From positions 1 through 8,301 of the forward strand of contig SBFZ01000295.1 of the NCBI GenBank assembly GCA_006227095.1: 8,301 nucleotides of DNA, given 5' to 3'. The translations under genes were made by a program, and so were the position numbers. Positions 1 to 8,301 of this stretch are shown in pieces. This DNA comes from Bacteroidota bacterium. Its GTDB lineage: Bacteria; Bacteroidota; Bacteroidia; Bacteroidales; VadinHA17. Positions within the stretch are counted from its first letter, which is position 1; each line of letters starts with the position of its first letter. The notes beneath the pieces are model-generated. The model was given only the letters and a program-made list of their open reading frames with translations, ran no database searches and had not been told where the DNA came from.

Positions 1-2443
1 CGGAGCTCAGAGCAGCCACCTGCCCCTCAAGCATCAGGTAGAGCCTTCGTACGGCGATCCGTTCATCCCTGAAAGAAACCAGGTTGTATGAATGGAAAAG
101 TCCGTCGTCACGCCTGTTTTCACTGATAGACCTGTCAGCATATTCAAGTATGAGCTTCATGAACTCTGTCAGGGCAGCAGTGCTGAGCTTCATCCGGCTT
201 CCGGCAAATGAACTGTCATAGACAGTCTGCCTGTATTCACTGCCTGCCTTCCCCAGAATCAACGTAAAATCATACCTGTCGCGGTCTGAGAAACCTTCTC
301 TCAATTTCTTCCTGTTCAGGGTGAAGATCATGGATACCTTTTCGAGAAGGGTTACAAGTTCATCTGAAATATTGAATTCCCTGGCACTGCTGTTTTCGAG
401 GGTGGTGATCCAGAACCGGAGTGACCGTCTCAGGTAACAGAGAGTCACAACCGATGTTCCATTGCCTACGAGTGCATTGTTTGCATCATTCCACTCCGGA
501 CGCTGGGTGTTGAGCCATATGCCTGCCCCGGGGATGAAGTTTACAATCTTGGCGAGAAGTGAGCAGAGTATCTTTTCCATCAGGTTAACCCTGTGTATCT
601 CTCCGTCAGCTCTCCGCAACAGGGCTCCGTCTGAACCGATGCGATCCACCATGCCTGCGATCTGAGAATCAAGGTCGTGGTCGAATACTATGGTATCCTT
701 CGGGTTGAGGATCATCTGTTCTACCGGCCTGATCCTGTATGGAACGTTGGCATACACGAAGATCTCTTCACCCAGAAGGCGGTCAAGCATGCCCGGGTTA
801 TGACTGCATGACTGCTCGAGGAATTTCTGGAGGTAGATAAGCTGGTGGTCTCCCCAGTAGCCAATATATGCCCAGGGGTCATCATGGGCAGGACGCTCCC
901 AGTCTATCCCTTCACGGGTGATCCTGTAGGGGTTGTATCCGTCTGCCGTGGTTGCATTGACAAACCTGGCGATAACTGATTCTATGTAACCCGGGAATGA
1001 AATACATAATGCTTCCCAGTTCTGGAAAATGTCACGCCAGTTCCCCTGGTACCCTGTTTTCCTGCTGCCGTCAGGAAGCTTCGGCTCAATCTGGAAGCGG
1101 TTCCACGGCCGGCTGGGGTCACCATGACGCCGGCTGAAGGTAAGGGGGAGATATTCGAGGCATATCCTGTCAAGATCCGGATCACCCTCTGTCCCAAGAA
1201 CGCTGATCAGCCTGTCACGGTTAACCTTCTCAGGAAGATTCTTAAGGGTGGCGGCATACCTTTCATGTATGCCCCTGTTGCACTGGGAGACAAAATGGAT
1301 GAAGTCACCTGCGCTGACATCATAATTTGATTCAAATATCCCGCCCCTCATGATGTTGAAGAGGGTATTTGAAAAGTGGCGGGCATCACCAAGATGGTCT
1401 CCGGTAAGCTGAATTCCGTCAGCGGCGGCGACAAGCCGGACAAGGCTGACAGTGCCCCGGGCAATCTCCTCTTCCAGGACTTCCGGGGTATTGCTGTTAC
1501 CCTTCAGGAAGCGGTCGAGGTTAACCACATCAGAGGAGTCTTTGTTTACATCGGCAACAAAATACCAGGTAAGCTCTGCCACTGGCTCGAGTTCGTATTC
1601 AGTTACAGTGTAATATGCTCCTGTGGAACCAAAAAGATCCGTTTCCGTTTCAGTGCTTTCACCTCTCCGGAAGGCGTCGCGTTGCCGGTCAGAGATAAGA
1701 TACTCTGTTTTGCCGGCGTTCCCGGCTGACCATACCACTGTTGCCTTGAGGGCCTCACTCGGCTCGGCTGTGTCTGAGGGGATGGAGCTGAGAAGGAAAA
1801 GAGCCATCCGGCTTCCGGGAAGGAGCTCATTTTTTCTGTAAGCCGTCAGAAGATTGCTGTATTCATTCTGAAAGGCATAATCAACCCCATAGGGCAGAAT
1901 ATTCCTTATTCCGTCCAGAATACGGATTTTCACTGCCTTCCTGCCGGTTGACCCAATCTGAGATTTTTTAATCCAGCCGTATTTCTCGCTGCTGTACCAC
2001 CCATAACGAAAGGTTAGTTCCAGGTCATGGTTCTTCTCCTCGAAGATGATCTTGTTGCCGTAAATGCTTTTGTAGAGGTTCCGTTCCAGCCTGTAAATGG
2101 TTTCCTGGCCAGATGCAAAAGGTTCCCAGAGAAATGCATTGCCATCAGTTTCAACAAGGCATAGGGTACTGCTTCCTGTTTTACCCCTGTAATCATGTAT
2201 CTTATCTTCAGTGTAATAGGGGAAGAGGGCACTGTTGCGGTCTTTCCTGCCGGCTGTCAGCGAGCCGGTGCTTGAAATATACATCCAGAGATCGGAATCA
2301 CTGACCACTGCCATGAAGAAATCGGGCATCCTGTCATAATTGGCAATTTTATAGAACCTTTCATCATCCAGGACAACAACCTCCCCGGTCACATTCTTCC
2401 TTTCAAAATTCAGTATGGTATTTGCCAGCCTGATCTCTTTCAT
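1..2443 (-). CDS. Clan GH-Q glycoside phosphorylase-like protein, probable beta-1,3-oligoglucan phosphorylase (C-terminus cut by window edge)
   Basis: The frame is open from the ATG at 2443 to the left edge: 814 codons without a stop, with the end outside the window. There is no signal peptide (it starts MKEIRLANTILNF), so a cytoplasmic enzyme is likely. Seen motifs: SSTGSLTAGR at residues 57-66 and ALFPYYTEDKI at 72-82 in an N-terminal sandwich-like region; GNWRDIFQN at 467-475, resembling the RD..Q sugar-binding motif of GH94; YWGDHQ near 529-534; and RPEWNDANN at 648-656, where D653 matches the catalytic acid in the WND motif of cellobiose phosphorylases, followed by a glycine-rich GNGTSV. 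Known families of this clan are GH94, GH149 and GH161; the last two contain beta-1,3-oligoglucan phosphorylases of roughly 1,000-1,200 residues, so several hundred residues are probably missing. The GH16 and GH30 neighbours favour a beta-1,3-glucan substrate. It lies 37 bases after the GH30 gene, presumably in the same operon. Choosing between GH149, GH161 and an uncharacterised relative is not possible by eye. Confidence 0.7.
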   Translation of the reverse strand, partial: MKEIRLANTILNFERKNVTGEVVVLDDERFYKIANYDRMPDFFMAVVSDSDLWMYISSTGSLTAGRKDRNSALFPYYTEDKIHDYRGKTGSSTLCLVETDGNAFLWEPFASGQETIYRLERNLYKSIYGNKIIFEEKNHDLELTFRYGWYSSEKYGWIKKSQIGSTGRKAVKIRILDGIRNILPYGVDYAFQNEYSNLLTAYRKNELLPGSRMALFLLSSIPSDTAEPSEALKATVVWSAGNAGKTEYLISDRQRDAFRRGESTETETDLFGSTGAYYTVTEYELEPVAELTWYFVADVNKDSSDVVNLDRFLKGNSNTPEVLEEEIARGTVSLVRLVAAADGIQLTGDHLGDARHFSNTLFNIMRGGIFESNYDVSAGDFIHFVSQCNRGIHERYAATLKNLPEKVNRDRLISVLGTEGDPDLDRICLEYLPLTFSRRHGDPSRPWNRFQIEPKLPDGSRKTGYQGNWRDIFQNWEALCISFPGYIESVIARFVNATTADGYNPYRITREGIDWERPAHDDPWAYIGYWGDHQLIYLQKFLEQSCSHNPGMLDRLLGEEIFVYANVPYRIRPVEQMILNPKDTIVFDHDLDSQIAGMVDRIGSDGALLRRADGEIHRVNLMEKILCSLLAKIVNFIPGAGIWLNTQRPEWNDANNALVGNGTSVVTLCYLRRSLRFWITTLENSSAREFNISDELVTLLEKVSMIFTLNRKKLREGFSDRDRYDFTLILGKAGSEYRQTVYDSSFAGSRMKLSTAALTEFMKLILEYADRSISENRRDDGLFHSYNLVSFRDERIAVRRLYLMLEGQVAALSS

Positions 2444-2480
2444 CTCTATTACAGGTTTTCGGTTATTCAAGCAATTCTAA

Positions 2481-4151
2481 TCACAGTTGTATCTGAATTG
2501 TTTTCAGCGAGTTGGCTTCAGATACCATTTCGGCGTACTGATCCTTTACCTGCAGTGAAAGCCTGATCTCCTCTTTGGTGGTATTAAGAAGCTGCACTGT
2601 AAGGAGGTTGGCTTCATTAATAGTTGCGCAGGCATGGATTGCATCGGGGTCAAGCCCTTCAGCATTTTTATTTGTGGCCACAGCCCTGTCACCCGGCCTT
2701 ATTGTCTTGCTGAACTGGGCAAGGATGTAGTATACCGGTGTATAGTACACCTCTTTTGTCTCCGTATTGATCATGACCGGAGCACCGCAGAAGTTGCCGA
2801 CATGGTTTGGACCACCGTTATGATCAAGGACAGCGTTCCAGTCTATCCATCCCCTCAGCCAGTGATCGATGCTGACTATTATGTTCCTGGCGTAGCGGTG
2901 GACAGGGGTGTAGATCGGGTGGTCCTCCTGTATGACTCCCTGCCAGGGGGCGGTATATCCCCAGTCAGTGGCATTGGGGTTCCACCAGAAGGAATCGTTT
3001 TTGAACCAGTTTTCTTCGGTGAACTTTTCGGGATCGGTGATGCCTGCCGGGGCAGGTTTGCCGAGGTCATCTATGCAGCCTTCGGTGTGCAGGATGGCAT
3101 GATCAGGGAATTTTGCATTGACCCTCTCAAACACATCCTCGTAGACTTTGAAAGTACTCTCATACCAGTGCACCGCCGTACCGTATACATATTCCGCTGT
3201 CTCAGGATCACCAAGAATGACATCTGCCCAGTGCTCAAGTCCGTCCCTGTTCTGGTCATAGATAAGGAGCTTCACCTGCGAGTGGTCACTCTCTTTCAGT
3301 GCAGGCCCCAGGTATTTTTTTATGAACTCATTCTGTGTTTCTGGAGTGAAGTGCATACTCTCCCACGAACCGTTGTTGCCGTGGGGTTCATTGACCGGTG
3401 TGATACCCCATATCCCGATCCCCTGTTCCCTGCAGGCATCAAGATATCTGATCAGGTACCTGGCATAGGTCTCCTCGTATTCCTTTTTGAGACTGCCGCC
3501 TGTACCCTGGTAGTTGTTTTCCGGTGACCCGGGAATGTACCAGTCTTCTATATCCTTCATCCATGAGGGGGCTGTCCACGCTGAGGCAACAATGCGCAGG
3601 AGACTGTCATTCTGCCTGTTCTTGATATGCAGAGCTTCTTTGATCATCGGAAGCAGGTCATAGTGTTCGTCAACTATGCCCGGGTATTTTGAAACACTGA
3701 ACCCGGCGAGATCAGGATCAAGGCTGAATGATTCGAGTGCCGTGTCGCCTTTCATGTCAGCATATGAGTATTTCCCCTCTACGGAAAAGTCGCATGCCCC
3801 GATGTGGGTGCGTGTCAGGGAGAAGTTGGCACCTTCTTCACTGAAAAGGGCCTTCATTACCTCCGCCCGGCGTTCAGGTCCGAGATGAGCAAGAACGAAG
3901 GCCGATGATTCGGTGAACGAGGAGCCGATACCGTCTATGGTCTGCTTTATCTGTTCCGGTTCTACCACAATCACGTTTCCATCGGCTATGCCCTTAATAA
4001 AGCGGACATTTTCCTTTTCAGCAATTTTATCTCCGCTCTCTGAGGTAAGAAGTATCCTTTCAGTTTTCAGCAGGGCATTGTCATTATTGCATGATTGCAT
4101 GAGAGTTGTAATTAAGGCAAGGGTCAGATAAATGACAGGTTTTCTTTTCAT
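2481..4151 (-). CDS. GH30 family beta-glucanase lipoprotein (likely endo-beta-1,6-glucanase or beta-glucosidase)
   Basis: A 556-residue exported GH30 enzyme. The start at 4151 (MKRKPVIYL) is chosen because a hydrophobic signal peptide follows at once and ends at LMQSC, putting the lipidated Cys at 21. An ATG three codons earlier (4160) is also possible. A longer reading from a GTG at 4217 would overlap the symporter gene and precede the signal peptide. Family landmarks: GIGSSFTESSA at 74-84 (the GFGG-like first strand), RTHIGACDFS at 114-123, the acid/base Glu255 in VNEPHG, the nucleophile Glu357 in HTEGC, and WIDWN followed by HNGGPNH, which ends the barrel before a C-terminal beta-sandwich. 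The 102-residue spacing between the two glutamates suits the family. GH30 covers glucosylceramidase-like, beta-1,6-glucanase and xylanase activities. Beside a GH16 laminarinase, attack on beta-1,6 branches or linkages is the likely job, but the subfamily is inferred. The lipobox is off consensus (M at -3, Q at -2). The gene begins 55 bases after the symporter stop, and the phosphorylase-like gene follows. Confidence 0.9.
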   Translation of the reverse strand: MKRKPVIYLTLALITTLMQSCNNDNALLKTERILLTSESGDKIAEKENVRFIKGIADGNVIVVEPEQIKQTIDGIGSSFTESSAFVLAHLGPERRAEVMKALFSEEGANFSLTRTHIGACDFSVEGKYSYADMKGDTALESFSLDPDLAGFSVSKYPGIVDEHYDLLPMIKEALHIKNRQNDSLLRIVASAWTAPSWMKDIEDWYIPGSPENNYQGTGGSLKKEYEETYARYLIRYLDACREQGIGIWGITPVNEPHGNNGSWESMHFTPETQNEFIKKYLGPALKESDHSQVKLLIYDQNRDGLEHWADVILGDPETAEYVYGTAVHWYESTFKVYEDVFERVNAKFPDHAILHTEGCIDDLGKPAPAGITDPEKFTEENWFKNDSFWWNPNATDWGYTAPWQGVIQEDHPIYTPVHRYARNIIVSIDHWLRGWIDWNAVLDHNGGPNHVGNFCGAPVMINTETKEVYYTPVYYILAQFSKTIRPGDRAVATNKNAEGLDPDAIHACATINEANLLTVQLLNTTKEEIRLSLQVKDQYAEMVSEANSLKTIQIQL

Positions 4152-4206
4152 ATCAAACATTTTCACAAATTTAATCGATGAAGCGGTTGTACACATCACG
4201 CTGAAA

Positions 4207-5637
4207 TTATAGTTCACCTCTCCTGGCGACCAGTTCTGCCTTTATTTCACGGGCTTTCTCTTCAGTCAGATCGTATTTCCACATGATCACTATTGCCAGG
4301 AATGCTGTGAGTGCGGGTATGGTAATGTCTGCCAGACGTAGTTTGGTAATTGTTTCACCTGCCTGCACGGCAGCATTCTGGTCAAAGCCGACAAGTTTGA
4401 GTACAAGCCCGCCCAATACCAGGGCAAGAGCCTGGCCAAGCTTCACCATCCACCAGTAGATTGCCCCGAAGGTACCCTCTTTCCTCGGCATACCGTTGTT
4501 GAGCTCATCCAGGTCACATACATCAGCTGTCATGCTCATCATGAGGGTAAACAACCCGCCTATTCCGAATGACATCAGCGGTATCGGCATAAAGATAAGC
4601 CATGGATTTGTTGTATTGAACCCCCACCATTTGAGTACGTAACCGATGATTGAAATGAAAGTTGATATTATGAAAGCCTGTCTCTTGCCGAATCTTGTTG
4701 CCAGGGCTGAGATGACAGGTATCACCAGGAAAGCCGTCACTATGGCTGAAACTGTTGAGAACCAGGCCGGCCAGTTGCCTGCCAGACCATAATCACCTTT
4801 GAACATGTAGAAAACAATGATGAAGTAACTGAAGGAAGCCACCATCTGAAATCCGTTGAATACCAGGAATGTGGCACCACAGAGCCTCATGAACGGTATG
4901 TTCTTTGAAACCTGGACAATCCCTTTCAGCAGGTCCTTGAGGTTTGAGAAGAGTGACCTGAAATTGATCTCCTTCCTGTTTTCCATATTTGAGGCATCTA
5001 TCCCCCTGCAGAATATTGCCGGCAGGATTCCCAGGAGCAAACAGATACCTCCAACTATCACTGACAGTCTTCTTACCCCGATAGCCTGTGTCTCAAAGAG
5101 GTTAGGATTGGCAATGAGTACCCAGAACCAGGGTACGATCATCCACGCAATCTGTCCCATTGTCTGTGAAAAAGCCATCAGGCGGGTACGTTCGTTGTAG
5201 TCACTTGTCATCTCGTAACCCAGACCGATGAGCGGGGTGGAGAAGATTGTATTCCCTGTCAGATAGATAAGCGAAAAGATAAGGAAGTACCAGAAGTTGT
5301 ACATCTGTGAGTTTTCCGGGTGGAGCTGCCACAGCACCGCAAACAGGGTTCCACTCAGTATTGCTCCTATAAAAATGTAGGGTCTCCTCCGTCCGAACCT
5401 TGATTTGGTATTGTCGGAAATGAAACCCATGATCGGGTCAGTAATGGCATCATAGAGCCTGGGCAGACCCCCGAGCAGTCCCGCAAGGAATGGATCCATA
5501 CCAAATGCGGTAAGAAGGAAGAACATGAAGATCCCGAGTGACCCGGGCAGGAGGTTGTTTACAAGATGGCCGGCCCCGAAAGCTGCCTTCTGGACCATCG
5601 GAACCCTGTCTCTTTCTGATGTTACATATTTGCTCAT
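4207..5637 (-). CDS. GPH-family (MelB-like) sugar:cation symporter, MFS superfamily
   Basis: A 476-residue polytopic inner-membrane protein, the usual length for the glycoside-pentoside-hexuronide:cation symporter family, with about twelve hydrophobic segments. The diagnostic region is at residues 58-86: LPRLYDAITDPIMGFISD then SRFGRRRP. This holds Asp63, Asp67 and Asp75 and the basic loop between helices 2 and 3 that is typical of MelB relatives. A second landmark is the middle loop near residues 212-240 (ASNMENRKEINFRSLF), which is polar and precedes helix 7. The ATG at 5637 opens directly into MSKYVTSERDRVP and then the first helix; no closer start is needed. The 116-base stretch up to the GH16 stop shows no clear terminator or promoter. 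In this setting it probably imports short beta-glucan oligosaccharides or laminaribiose released by the surface and periplasmic enzymes, feeding the cytoplasmic phosphorylase two genes downstream. The substrate and the coupling ion are inferred from context, not visible in the sequence. Confidence 0.88.
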   Translation of the reverse strand: MSKYVTSERDRVPMVQKAAFGAGHLVNNLLPGSLGIFMFFLLTAFGMDPFLAGLLGGLPRLYDAITDPIMGFISDNTKSRFGRRRPYIFIGAILSGTLFAVLWQLHPENSQMYNFWYFLIFSLIYLTGNTIFSTPLIGLGYEMTSDYNERTRLMAFSQTMGQIAWMIVPWFWVLIANPNLFETQAIGVRRLSVIVGGICLLLGILPAIFCRGIDASNMENRKEINFRSLFSNLKDLLKGIVQVSKNIPFMRLCGATFLVFNGFQMVASFSYFIIVFYMFKGDYGLAGNWPAWFSTVSAIVTAFLVIPVISALATRFGKRQAFIISTFISIIGYVLKWWGFNTTNPWLIFMPIPLMSFGIGGLFTLMMSMTADVCDLDELNNGMPRKEGTFGAIYWWMVKLGQALALVLGGLVLKLVGFDQNAAVQAGETITKLRLADITIPALTAFLAIVIMWKYDLTEEKAREIKAELVARRGEL

Positions 5638-5753
5638 AGATTGCTGGTTAAGGTACGCGTTCAGATATCCGTTATGATAATTTAATACTCTTTCAGCATA
5701 CTGTAATTAGGGTATCTTTTTGTTTGGTGGAGAATTAATATAAGATCAGGAGA

Positions 5754-6557
5754 TTACTGAACCTCACGGTAAACTCTTACCCAGTCAACATACATTGTCT
5801 GCGGGAAAGGCGTATCCGGCGTCGGGAAACCGACATAGCTTCCGCCGACGGCAACATTCATGATGATGAAGAAAGGGTGATCATAGACCCATTCTCCCGT
5901 CACATCCTCCGGATTTATTTCCTGGTAGAGAATATCATCAACATAATATGCTATGAAGTCCTCACCCCATTCAACAACAAAGGTGTGGTAGTCAACATCG
6001 AACCTGTCATTGGGAAAGCCGAAGCTCTTTGTAATGGCTGCTCCGCCGGAGTATCCGGGACCATGGACGCTGCCATGGACCAGGTTTGGCTGCTGGCCCC
6101 TGTATTCCATGATGTCTATCTCACCGCACTGAGGCCACGGGTTTGTTTCAATATCTGCACCCAGCATCCAGAAGGCCGGCCAGATGCCGGGGCCCCATGG
6201 AAGTTTTATACGGGCTTCAAACCGTCCGTAGGCCTGCTCGAATTTTCCCTGGGTTTTAATTCTGGCTGAAGTAAATGAACCTCCGTTATTTACTGCAGTG
6301 ATCTTCAGCGCTCCGTTTTCCACGGTAATGTTCCGGGGATCATCTGTGTATGTCTGCAGCTCGGCATTACCCCAGCCGCCTCCTCCCAGGTCATAAGCCC
6401 ATTTTGTGTCGTCGACGGCTCCGTCGGTGTCGAACTCGTCCTGCCAGACCAGGGTATAGTTGCGCTCTGCCGGCTTCTCCTCACATCCTGCCAGAAGGAG
6501 CAGGGGGGTAATTAAAATGGCAGCTCTGAGATTTAATATTATCCTGAGTGATTTCAT
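5754..6557 (-). CDS. GH16 endo-beta-1,3-glucanase (laminarinase) lipoprotein
   Basis: A 267-residue enzyme consisting of little more than a signal peptide and one GH16 beta-jelly-roll. The start at 6557 is chosen because it opens a classic lipoprotein signal (MKSLRIILNL then LLLLAGC, Cys25) and sits just after a purine-rich AAAGAAAGAAG. The same frame is open further back to 6716, but that stretch would overlap the upstream gene and the hairpin. After the Cys come Glu-Glu, the kind of acidic residues linked to surface export of lipoproteins in Bacteroidota. The catalytic signature GEIDIMEY gives Glu146 (nucleophile), Asp148 and Glu151 (acid/base), in the ExDxxE form of laminarinase-type GH16. 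Other landmarks are WPAFWMLG at 126-133, HGSVHGPGYSG at 161-171 and a C-terminal YVDWVRVY strand. There is no attached binding module, while the gene just upstream consists of such modules, so glucan capture may be provided in trans. Expected action is internal cleavage of beta-1,3-glucan; mixed-linkage glucan is possible. Confidence 0.93.
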   Translation of the reverse strand: MKSLRIILNLRAAILITPLLLLAGCEEKPAERNYTLVWQDEFDTDGAVDDTKWAYDLGGGGWGNAELQTYTDDPRNITVENGALKITAVNNGGSFTSARIKTQGKFEQAYGRFEARIKLPWGPGIWPAFWMLGADIETNPWPQCGEIDIMEYRGQQPNLVHGSVHGPGYSGGAAITKSFGFPNDRFDVDYHTFVVEWGEDFIAYYVDDILYQEINPEDVTGEWVYDHPFFIIMNVAVGGSYVGFPTPDTPFPQTMYVDWVRVYREVQ

Positions 6558-6605
6558 CTTCTTTCTTTTATGTTTTCCTTGATTAAAATCCTGGTTTAAA
6601 GTAAA

Positions 6606-6648
6606 GGTTACAGCCCTCGTTGAATAAATTCTGACAGGGGCTGTAACC
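6606..6648 (-). terminator. Intercistronic stem-loop, terminator- or attenuator-like
   Basis: A perfect 11-bp inverted repeat: GGTTACAGCCC at 6606-6616 pairs with GGGCTGTAACC at 6638-6648, with a 21-base loop. On the minus-strand transcript the hairpin begins 9 bases after the stop codon of the binding protein and is followed by TTTACTTTAAA, a broken T-tract. It ends 48 bases before the GH16 start. It may act as a weak terminator letting some transcript pass, or as a 3'-end stabiliser of the upstream message. The long loop and imperfect T-run make it a poor textbook terminator. Confidence 0.55.
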
Positions 6649-6657
6649 ATCTCATTA

Positions 6658-8301
6658 TTACCTGTAGAAATAGAGGTTGTCAATATAGAGTTCATCCAGG
6701 TTTGATGTAAGAACAATCTGAGCCAGGTCTGACCTCGTCAATGTACCGGTAAATGCCGTGACAGGCAGGTCTATTGAGATCCATTTGCCCTTCTCGAGTG
6801 CCGGAATACTACCGCTTACGGTATGGACTACAGTGAGTATGAAGTTTGTCACTTCAGCTGAACCACCACCGAAGTCGACACACTTGATTGTGAGAACGTC
6901 TCCTGCCACCACCTCATCAGGTGTCCAGATGTCGAGGTGGAAATTTGTCATTGCCGATGCATTGAATTTATGGTTGCTGAAGTCAATGCCTGCAAAGTTT
7001 GTGAAGGTATACTTCTTGACTGCATCTCCGGCCACTGTCAGGTCGGCAACATCAGAATCATCCCAGGTGGCTGACCAGGCATCAACGGTAACATTTGCGT
7101 AGGCATTGCTGAACAGGGATATTACATCACCAGCATTTCTTGCAGGAGGTGTGGGTGCTGCTGCTGTGGGTCCGCCGGTAGTTCCTCCGGATGTTTTATA
7201 GAAGTAGAAGTTATCTATCCAGATGGTGTTTGCACCGGCAGGCTGGCCCACCAGAATATACTGCGCCAGATGGGCTTTGGTTGTCAGACCGGAAAAACTG
7301 CTCAGCGGTATGTCATAGCTTACCCATACGCCCTGTGCCGGTGATGCGAAATTGAGCTGGTGTTCCACATCATCACCGCCTCCGTATGAACCGTCAGCAC
7401 CAAAGTCAACAAGCTTGAATCCGAAACTGGTATTATCAGCTGACCACACATCAATATGCACATGGGTCATCAATGTTGCATCAATGGTGGCCGTGGTTGT
7501 CTCTATCCCTACGTAATCAAGCGCGGAATACTTCTTGGCTGCGTTCCCTGCAATGTTTACATCCTCAAGAACCGCAACAGACCAGTCTGTTCTCCATGAG
7601 CTCACTGCAACATTCGTATAGGCATTGCTGAACAGGGAGATGACGTCTGCAGCATCCCTCGCCGGTGGTGCCGGCGCGGCTGCCGAAGGTTCCGTTGGTG
7701 CCGGGCCTGTCCTGTAGAAGTAAATGTTGTCAAGGTAGATTGTTGAGGGCGTGGTTCCGGCCTGCCCGTCAAACTTCATCTGTATAACATCGCCGAGGCT
7801 CATGCCGGAGGATGTGAAACTTGTCAGGGGAATGTCATAACTGTTCCATTGCCCGGCAGTTATCGGAGTCAGGGCAACGAGATGCTCAGCCGGTGAACCG
7901 CTGCCGTTGACCGGGGTCACGCTTACTGCAGTGGCATCAGCGGTCCACATATCAATGTGGAGATACTGCATGCCTGAAAGATCCTGCCCCGAGGCAAAGG
8001 ATGTACCCTGGTAATTGAAACTGGCATATTTGAGGGTGCTGTTACCAGCAACATCAACAGTGGTCACCACAGTTGACTGGCCCCAGTTCGGGTTGAAATC
8101 GGTACCGGTCAGACTTGTATAAGCCCCGCTGAACACCGATACCACATTGGCAGCATCCCTCGCCGGTGGCGTTGGTGCCGCAGCTGTTGGCTCCGTGGCT
8201 GAACTTCCGCCTTCAGTATAGAAATAGAGATTATCAAGATAGATATCCCCGTTTCCGTCAAACTTCAGCTGGAACACATCAGTCAGGTCAACCGGGGAGA
8301 A
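6658..8301 (-). CDS. Tandem-module carbohydrate-binding-like protein (N-terminus cut by window edge)
   Basis: The frame is open from the right edge to the TAA at 6658, giving 547 visible residues. The GTG at 8277 is not a credible start, because the codons before it continue a repeat. The visible part is the tail of one module plus three complete modules of 162-171 residues. Each opens with a Pro/Ala linker (AAAPTPPARDA), then D-V-I-S-L-F-S-x-A-Y, an AGxxxKKY segment, an H-x-D-x-W strand, a G-x-W-x-S-Y-D-I-P strand, and ends in YLDNLYFY or a variant. This closing pattern is typical of beta-sandwich carbohydrate-binding modules, though no CBM family is assigned here. There are no hydrolase signatures. 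The protein stops directly after the last YFYR, with no type IX sorting domain, so anchoring is probably by an unseen N-terminal lipoprotein signal. A GH catalytic domain upstream of the edge cannot be excluded. Probable role: surface binding of beta-glucan for the GH16 enzyme encoded next. Confidence 0.75.
   Translation of the reverse strand, partial: FSPVDLTDVFQLKFDGNGDIYLDNLYFYTEGGSSATEPTAAAPTPPARDAANVVSVFSGAYTSLTGTDFNPNWGQSTVVTTVDVAGNSTLKYASFNYQGTSFASGQDLSGMQYLHIDMWTADATAVSVTPVNGSGSPAEHLVALTPITAGQWNSYDIPLTSFTSSGMSLGDVIQMKFDGQAGTTPSTIYLDNIYFYRTGPAPTEPSAAAPAPPARDAADVISLFSNAYTNVAVSSWRTDWSVAVLEDVNIAGNAAKKYSALDYVGIETTTATIDATLMTHVHIDVWSADNTSFGFKLVDFGADGSYGGGDDVEHQLNFASPAQGVWVSYDIPLSSFSGLTTKAHLAQYILVGQPAGANTIWIDNFYFYKTSGGTTGGPTAAAPTPPARNAGDVISLFSNAYANVTVDAWSATWDDSDVADLTVAGDAVKKYTFTNFAGIDFSNHKFNASAMTNFHLDIWTPDEVVAGDVLTIKCVDFGGGSAEVTNFILTVVHTVSGSIPALEKGKWISIDLPVTAFTGTLTRSDLAQIVLTSNLDELYIDNLYFYR
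6661..7173 (-). repeat. Binding-like module 3 (complete, C-terminal)
   Basis: A 171-residue unit from GPTAAAPTPPARNAGDVI to LYIDNLYFYR, ending the protein. It has HLDIWTPD and GKWISIDLPV. The VDFG loop is shorter (VDFGGGSAEV), without the Asp cluster of module 2, and an extra VVHTVSGSIPALE segment follows. It is the most diverged of the three complete units. Confidence 0.75.
7192..7692 (-). repeat. Binding-like module 2 (complete)
   Basis: A 167-residue unit from EPSAAAPAPPARDAADVI to IWIDNFYFYKT. It has HIDVWSAD, GVWVSYDIPL and a VDFGADGSYGGGDDVEH loop rich in Asp and Gly, which could hold a calcium ion or contact sugar. Its linker shares 20 identical bases with module 3 (7619-7638 and 7100-7119). 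Confidence 0.75.
7708..8193 (-). repeat. Binding-like module 1 (complete)
   Basis: A 162-residue unit from EPTAAAPTPPARDAANVV to IYLDNIYFYRT. It has HIDMWTAD and GQWNSYDIPL in common with the later units. In place of the VDFG loop of modules 2 and 3 it has TPVNGSGSPAEHLVAL, so its presumed ligand or metal loop differs. The linker DNA shares a 20-base identical run with module 2 (8150-8169 and 7649-7668). Confidence 0.75.
8218..8301 (-). repeat. Binding-like module, C-terminal tail only
   Basis: The stretch from the right edge ends in DVFQLKFDGNG then IYLDNLYFY. It matches the end of the next module (DVIQMKFDGQAG then IYLDNIYFY) almost position for position, so a further module extends beyond the window. 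It shows that the repeat array has at least four copies and that the gene does not begin here. Confidence 0.75.

Follow-up and report, generated by a model that had tools for sequence, protein, structure and literature searches.

The window analysed here, all 8,301 nucleotides (bases 1-8301) of contig SBFZ01000295.1 (C102) from a 2.14-Mb Bacteroidota assembly, carries at one edge an 814-codon open reading frame that very probably represents the N-terminal part of a GH149 enzyme, a predicted cytoplasmic β-1,3-glucan phosphorylase in a likely laminarin-use operon. As judged from its sequence, the frame is GH149 and not GH94, GH161 or a new branch, and the gene is a new addition to a published family, within a published cluster type. 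The features of the frame are as follows:

2..2443, minus strand: GH149 β-1,3-glucan phosphorylase (predicted), N-terminal 814 of about 1151 residues; 3' end missing at the contig end
1019..1045, minus strand: GNWRDIFQN, residues 467-475 (R470/D471); motif read in the translation, role from Pro_7066 (PMC6771811)
476..502, minus strand: RPEWNDANN, residues 648-656 (D653); motif read in the translation, role from Pro_7066 (PMC6771811)

Assignment of the frame to GH149

The frame described in the first-pass annotation was confirmed, running from ATG 2443 to the window edge without a stop; starting instead at the in-frame TTG 2470 would lengthen it by 9 codons, but the nearest relative (L013/L094, 87%) opens at ATG. 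A complete, near-identical database protein, P0122, is 1151 residues long and 98.3% identical over the window's 814 residues, and about 337 C-terminal residues are missing from the window frame. No second piece of the gene was found in the same assembly, which is 71.57% complete. Against the NCBIfam GH149 model NF058639, which has a curated cut-off of 1150 bits, P0122 and L013 score 1576.9 and 1571.7 bits, respectively. In the PDB sequence comparison the frame matched the GH149 structure 6HQ6 (Pro_7066, also solved as 6HQ8) at 850.4 bits (E 1.4e-254), with about 49% identity over the window's part, and 6HQ6 also ranked first in Foldseek and VIA comparisons of the predicted fold, which agrees with that of GH149. 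In the tree the window protein falls among GH149 sequences of Bacteroidota that form a well supported group, and there it pairs with L106 of another genus (60%).

Profile, PDB match and fold together support the earlier reading of the frame as a clan GH-Q phosphorylase and, among the families it had proposed, GH149; the best family in the profile search is GH149 (NF058639), not a non-phosphorylase family. GH161 and a separate branch, the other options offered, fail. A GH161 β-1,3-glucan phosphorylase, requiring chains of three or more units, would share the clan fold (677-678 residues aligned), but at 16-19% identity in structural alignments, and with the best GH161 chain at 51.5 bits versus 850.4 for GH149 it is vanishingly improbable. 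A new branch outside GH149 was rejected on the position of the window protein among Bacteroidota GH149 sequences. GH94 was rejected as well, as with E values up to 1 Pfam returned no family and NCBIfam nothing but GH149; GH94 laminaribiose phosphorylase has the clan fold in common (623 residues aligned) at 13-15% identity in structural alignments.

The two motif blocks stand at the residues first reported for them, and the N-terminal blocks SSTGSLTAGR (57-66) and ALFPYYTEDKI (72-82) were likewise recovered. Across the best 80 of 589 confirmed relatives every GH149 frame, 76/76 full-length and 4/4 shorter, carries the two motif blocks without a letter changed, so chance does not explain them. 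The wide RD-to-WND spacing, previously taken to indicate a larger relative, proved to be that of Pro_7066: the motif blocks are identical, the R470-D653 distance is the same, and R470, D471 and D653 bear Pro_7066's own numbering (PMC6771811). According to that paper R470/D471 recognize sugar 1-phosphate and D653 is the predicted catalytic residue; when ten residues that it names were mapped to the 6HQ6 chain (offset 19), all ten gave the expected letter. All 38 aligned sequences, the window's among them, share R470, D471, W651, N652 and D653. The window ends before the C-terminal active-site residues E951 and H959, which, as in Pro_7066, are conserved in its complete relatives (76/76 full-length loci and 27/27 aligned rows listed, P0122 among them).

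Gene neighbourhood and proposed role

All five window genes lie on the minus strand, in the transcription order repeat protein, GH16, GPH transporter, GH30, GH149. The four upstream of the phosphorylase gene are:

2481..4151, minus strand: GH30, GH30_1-like; PF02055 236.4 bits; PDB 3ke0 213.4 bits, glucosylceramidases closest in the PDB
4207..5637, minus strand: GPH/MFS sugar:cation symporter, 476 residues; PF13347 200.5 bits; TIGR00792 186 bits (below the cut-off of 231.35)
5754..6557, minus strand: GH16 laminarinase-like protein; PF00722 92.8 bits; top PDB matches β-1,3-glucanases/laminarinases, 2hyk 245.2 bits
6658..8301, minus strand: tandem β-sandwich domain protein, similar to carbohydrate-binding modules (CBM-like), probable surface glycan-binding protein; 5' end off the contig

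The GH16 and GH30 genes said to adjoin the phosphorylase frame are thus both present by profile (PF00722 and PF02055). The GH30 start at 4151 is the analyst's choice (the listed open reading frame opens at GTG 4217), and the GH16 start, ATG 6557, was picked by its match to L013 (the listed frame opens at TTG 6716). Against the endo-1,6-glucanase model NF053856 the GH30 protein reached 191 of 700 bits, below the cut-off. Only 37 bases separate GH30 from GH149, a spacing that is operon-like. The repeat protein is without a Pfam family, has thousands of database relatives and is co-localised with GH149 in those related genomes that carry it; its repeats are candidate laminarin-binding modules.

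In the 80 loci, whose flanks often cover less than 10 kb per side, the neighbours of GH149 were a transporter (56), GH17b-like (53), GH16 (45), GH17a-like (44), GH2-like (41) and GH30 (40) genes, a repeat protein (34) and a regulator of the Reg_prop, Y_Y_Y or LuxR type (14). The common flavobacterial order (GH2-like, repeat protein, GH16, GH149, GH17, GH30, transporter, GH17) is close to that published for the laminarin polysaccharide utilization locus (PUL) of Muricauda lutaonensis: LuxR-type regulator, GH2, GH16, GH149, GH17, GH30_1, MFS, GH17 (PMC13188888). A Formosa laminarin PUL combines GH16, GH17, GH30, GH3 and GH149 near a TonB receptor and SusD, with a transporter fused to GH17 (PMC6246565), and the founding GH149 paper describes GH3/GH30_1, GH16/GH17 and MFS transporters with GH149, some in PULs and others in clusters lacking susCD (PMC5827456). 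The neighbours of the frame (GH30_1-like, GPH-type, GH16 and tandem CBM-like) match these published Bacteroidetes laminarin clusters, described in marine bacteria.

The arrangement differs from the Muricauda and Formosa PULs in several respects. In the nearest relative a regulator and a GH2-like gene are followed by the repeat (surface) protein, GH16, transporter, GH30, GH149 and two GH17 genes, and no SusD (PF07980) match was found on its 88-kb contig, with 25 matches elsewhere in that genome. Two congeners do have SusD near the cluster: in G005 it lies about 5 kb before GH149, and in G020 about 9.5 kb past the repeat protein. The window's transporter, unlike that of Formosa, carries no GH17 fusion; a GPH-type transporter fused to a GH17a-type enzyme occurs in 14 of the 80 loci (e.g., L042 9139-11484). 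The GH2-like gene of the nearest relative (L094 572-3754, minus strand) adjoins the cluster and encodes a protein of 1060 residues that matches the GH2 TIM barrel (PF02836, 29.9 bits), and has matches in 41 of the 80 GH149 loci. In congeners L103, L104 and L105 the GH149 belongs to a different lineage (54-55% identical) and has GH3, GH16 and GH30 as neighbours. In L107 12406-14791 (G015) two frames share the GH149 match, one covering query residues 8-561 and the other 572-823, a split that may be a broken gene or an assembly error.

A survey of frames from the 80 loci, using the author's own rule for a lipobox and for a strongly hydrophobic N-terminal stretch, found these signals in 0/80 and 1/80 GH149 frames, respectively, and neither in the window's frame, in keeping with its earlier description as signal-less. 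GH17a-type frames likewise gave 0/47 for each. Lipoboxes were flagged in 37/53 GH16 and 29/44 GH30 frames, the L013 GH30 included. The window GH16 and GH30 frames as listed were unflagged, and from the likely ATG starts a lipobox can be seen by eye in both (LLLLAGC in GH16 and LITTLMQSC in GH30).

Clan GH-Q phosphorylases act at the non-reducing end with phosphate. In the proposed pathway the CBM-like repeats of the surface protein would bind laminarin or a related β-1,3-glucan, GH16 would cut this glucan, the GH30_1-like enzyme would take off β-1,6-glucose branches, and the GPH symporter would bring the oligosaccharides into the cell. There GH149, with phosphate, would remove the non-reducing-end glucose as glucose 1-phosphate and so shorten the chain by one unit; D653 would be the catalytic residue, and sugar and phosphate would be held by R470/D471, E951 and H959. 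Two signal-less GH17 enzymes, next in line in the closest relative, would trim the remainder. The analysis establishes the sequence, family, motifs, gene order and predicted fold; activity, substrate, expression and location of the window GH149 are putative, and the hypothesis that it uses β-1,3-gluco-oligosaccharides holds up as a prediction.

Family alone does not fix the substrate; β-1,3-1,4-glycanase models pick up the GH16 neighbour, at scores far under their cut-offs, and CBM11, one of several folds that the repeat protein matches, is reported as solved with a mixed-linkage tetrasaccharide. Action on another β-glucan (mixed-linkage, β-1,2 or β-1,4) is nevertheless quite unlikely: in the PDB the GH16 is closest to laminarinases/β-1,3-glucanases, both characterised GH149 enzymes are described as using β-1,3-gluco-oligosaccharides (PMC5827456, PMC6771811), and P0122 retains 228 of the 229 positions whose conservation across 128 other sequences is 98% or more. 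Phosphorylase reactions are described as reversible (PMC5827456), and the enzyme might mainly store β-1,3-glucan from glucose 1-phosphate, but its neighbours are import and degradation genes and such a role is very improbable.

Several observations weigh against a GH149 β-1,3-glucan phosphorylase in a laminarin-use operon. The window fragment itself scores 1129.4 bits over 800 of 1134 positions of NF058639, below the cut-off, which the truncation explains, and no Pfam family matches the frame at E up to 1. The structure model, used to check the placement of D653 against R470/D471, is unreliable at residues 650-654, with a predicted local distance difference test score (pLDDT) under 50; the absence of the remaining catalytic domain may be the cause. 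GH30 was unseen in half of the 80 loci and GH16 in 35, in part through short flanks, and the GH149 of the sister lineage L106 adjoins a GH30 only. Debranching may come before or after import, since the Muricauda GH30_1 is predicted to be cytoplasmic (PMC13188888) and the window GH30 is lipoprotein-like; this difference may be lineage variation or a matter of start sites.

Surface oligosaccharide site

Pro_7066 binds laminarihexaose about 30 Å from the active site via the stacking tyrosines Y841 and Y993 and several polar residues, for which its authors only suggest a role in substrate targeting (PMC6771811). The site is a feature of this one structure and does not define GH149. As the window ends before residue 831, P0122 stands in for it here. 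Among the 76 full-length loci, Y841 is present in 51, Y/F993 in 67, E/D994 in 70 and K/R831 in 75, with Y841, Y993 and E994 together in 40. In the window's branch all three are replaced: L013 and P0121-P0126, the seven nearest, carry Q instead of Y841 and H or Q instead of Y993, and their residue 994 is no longer acidic (R, S, C, N or A). When four core residues were scored (K/R831, an aromatic residue or H at 841, Y/F993 and E/D994), at least three were found in 72 of 80 sequences (the 76 loci and four further sequences, one matching L028), and L013 alone had none; in the set made up of L013 and its 120 listed best database matches, 100/121 keep at least three.

General decay does not account for this loss, given the near-invariant positions retained by P0122. 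The branch has diverged elsewhere too, as eight positions at least 90% conserved outside the clade differ in all eight clade rows. The change looks gradual and not peculiar to the branch, since seven other loci among the 80 sequences keep only one or two core residues, P0127-P0146 retain anywhere between one and four, and three of the four are absent from P0140, which does not belong to the branch. Variation of surface-site residues as such is already known, the 2019 paper noting that some vary in less similar GH149 sequences (PMC6771811); that paper alone came up when the available paper collection was searched for surface binding sites in GH149. The residue changes suggest that laminarihexaose binding may be lost in the branch. 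It is possible, if somewhat doubtful, that this branch gave up its surface docking site but kept an intact catalytic apparatus, in line with living on short, debranched fragments delivered by the GPH symporter, and that its chain-length preference shifted to short chains. Erosion of the site is the only point beyond the first-pass annotation that a specialist may wish to follow.

With the assignment to GH149, a protein without a Pfam match gains a named enzyme family and a likely role in laminarin use, and the branch without the surface-site residues would provide a natural comparison for the role of that site in Pro_7066.
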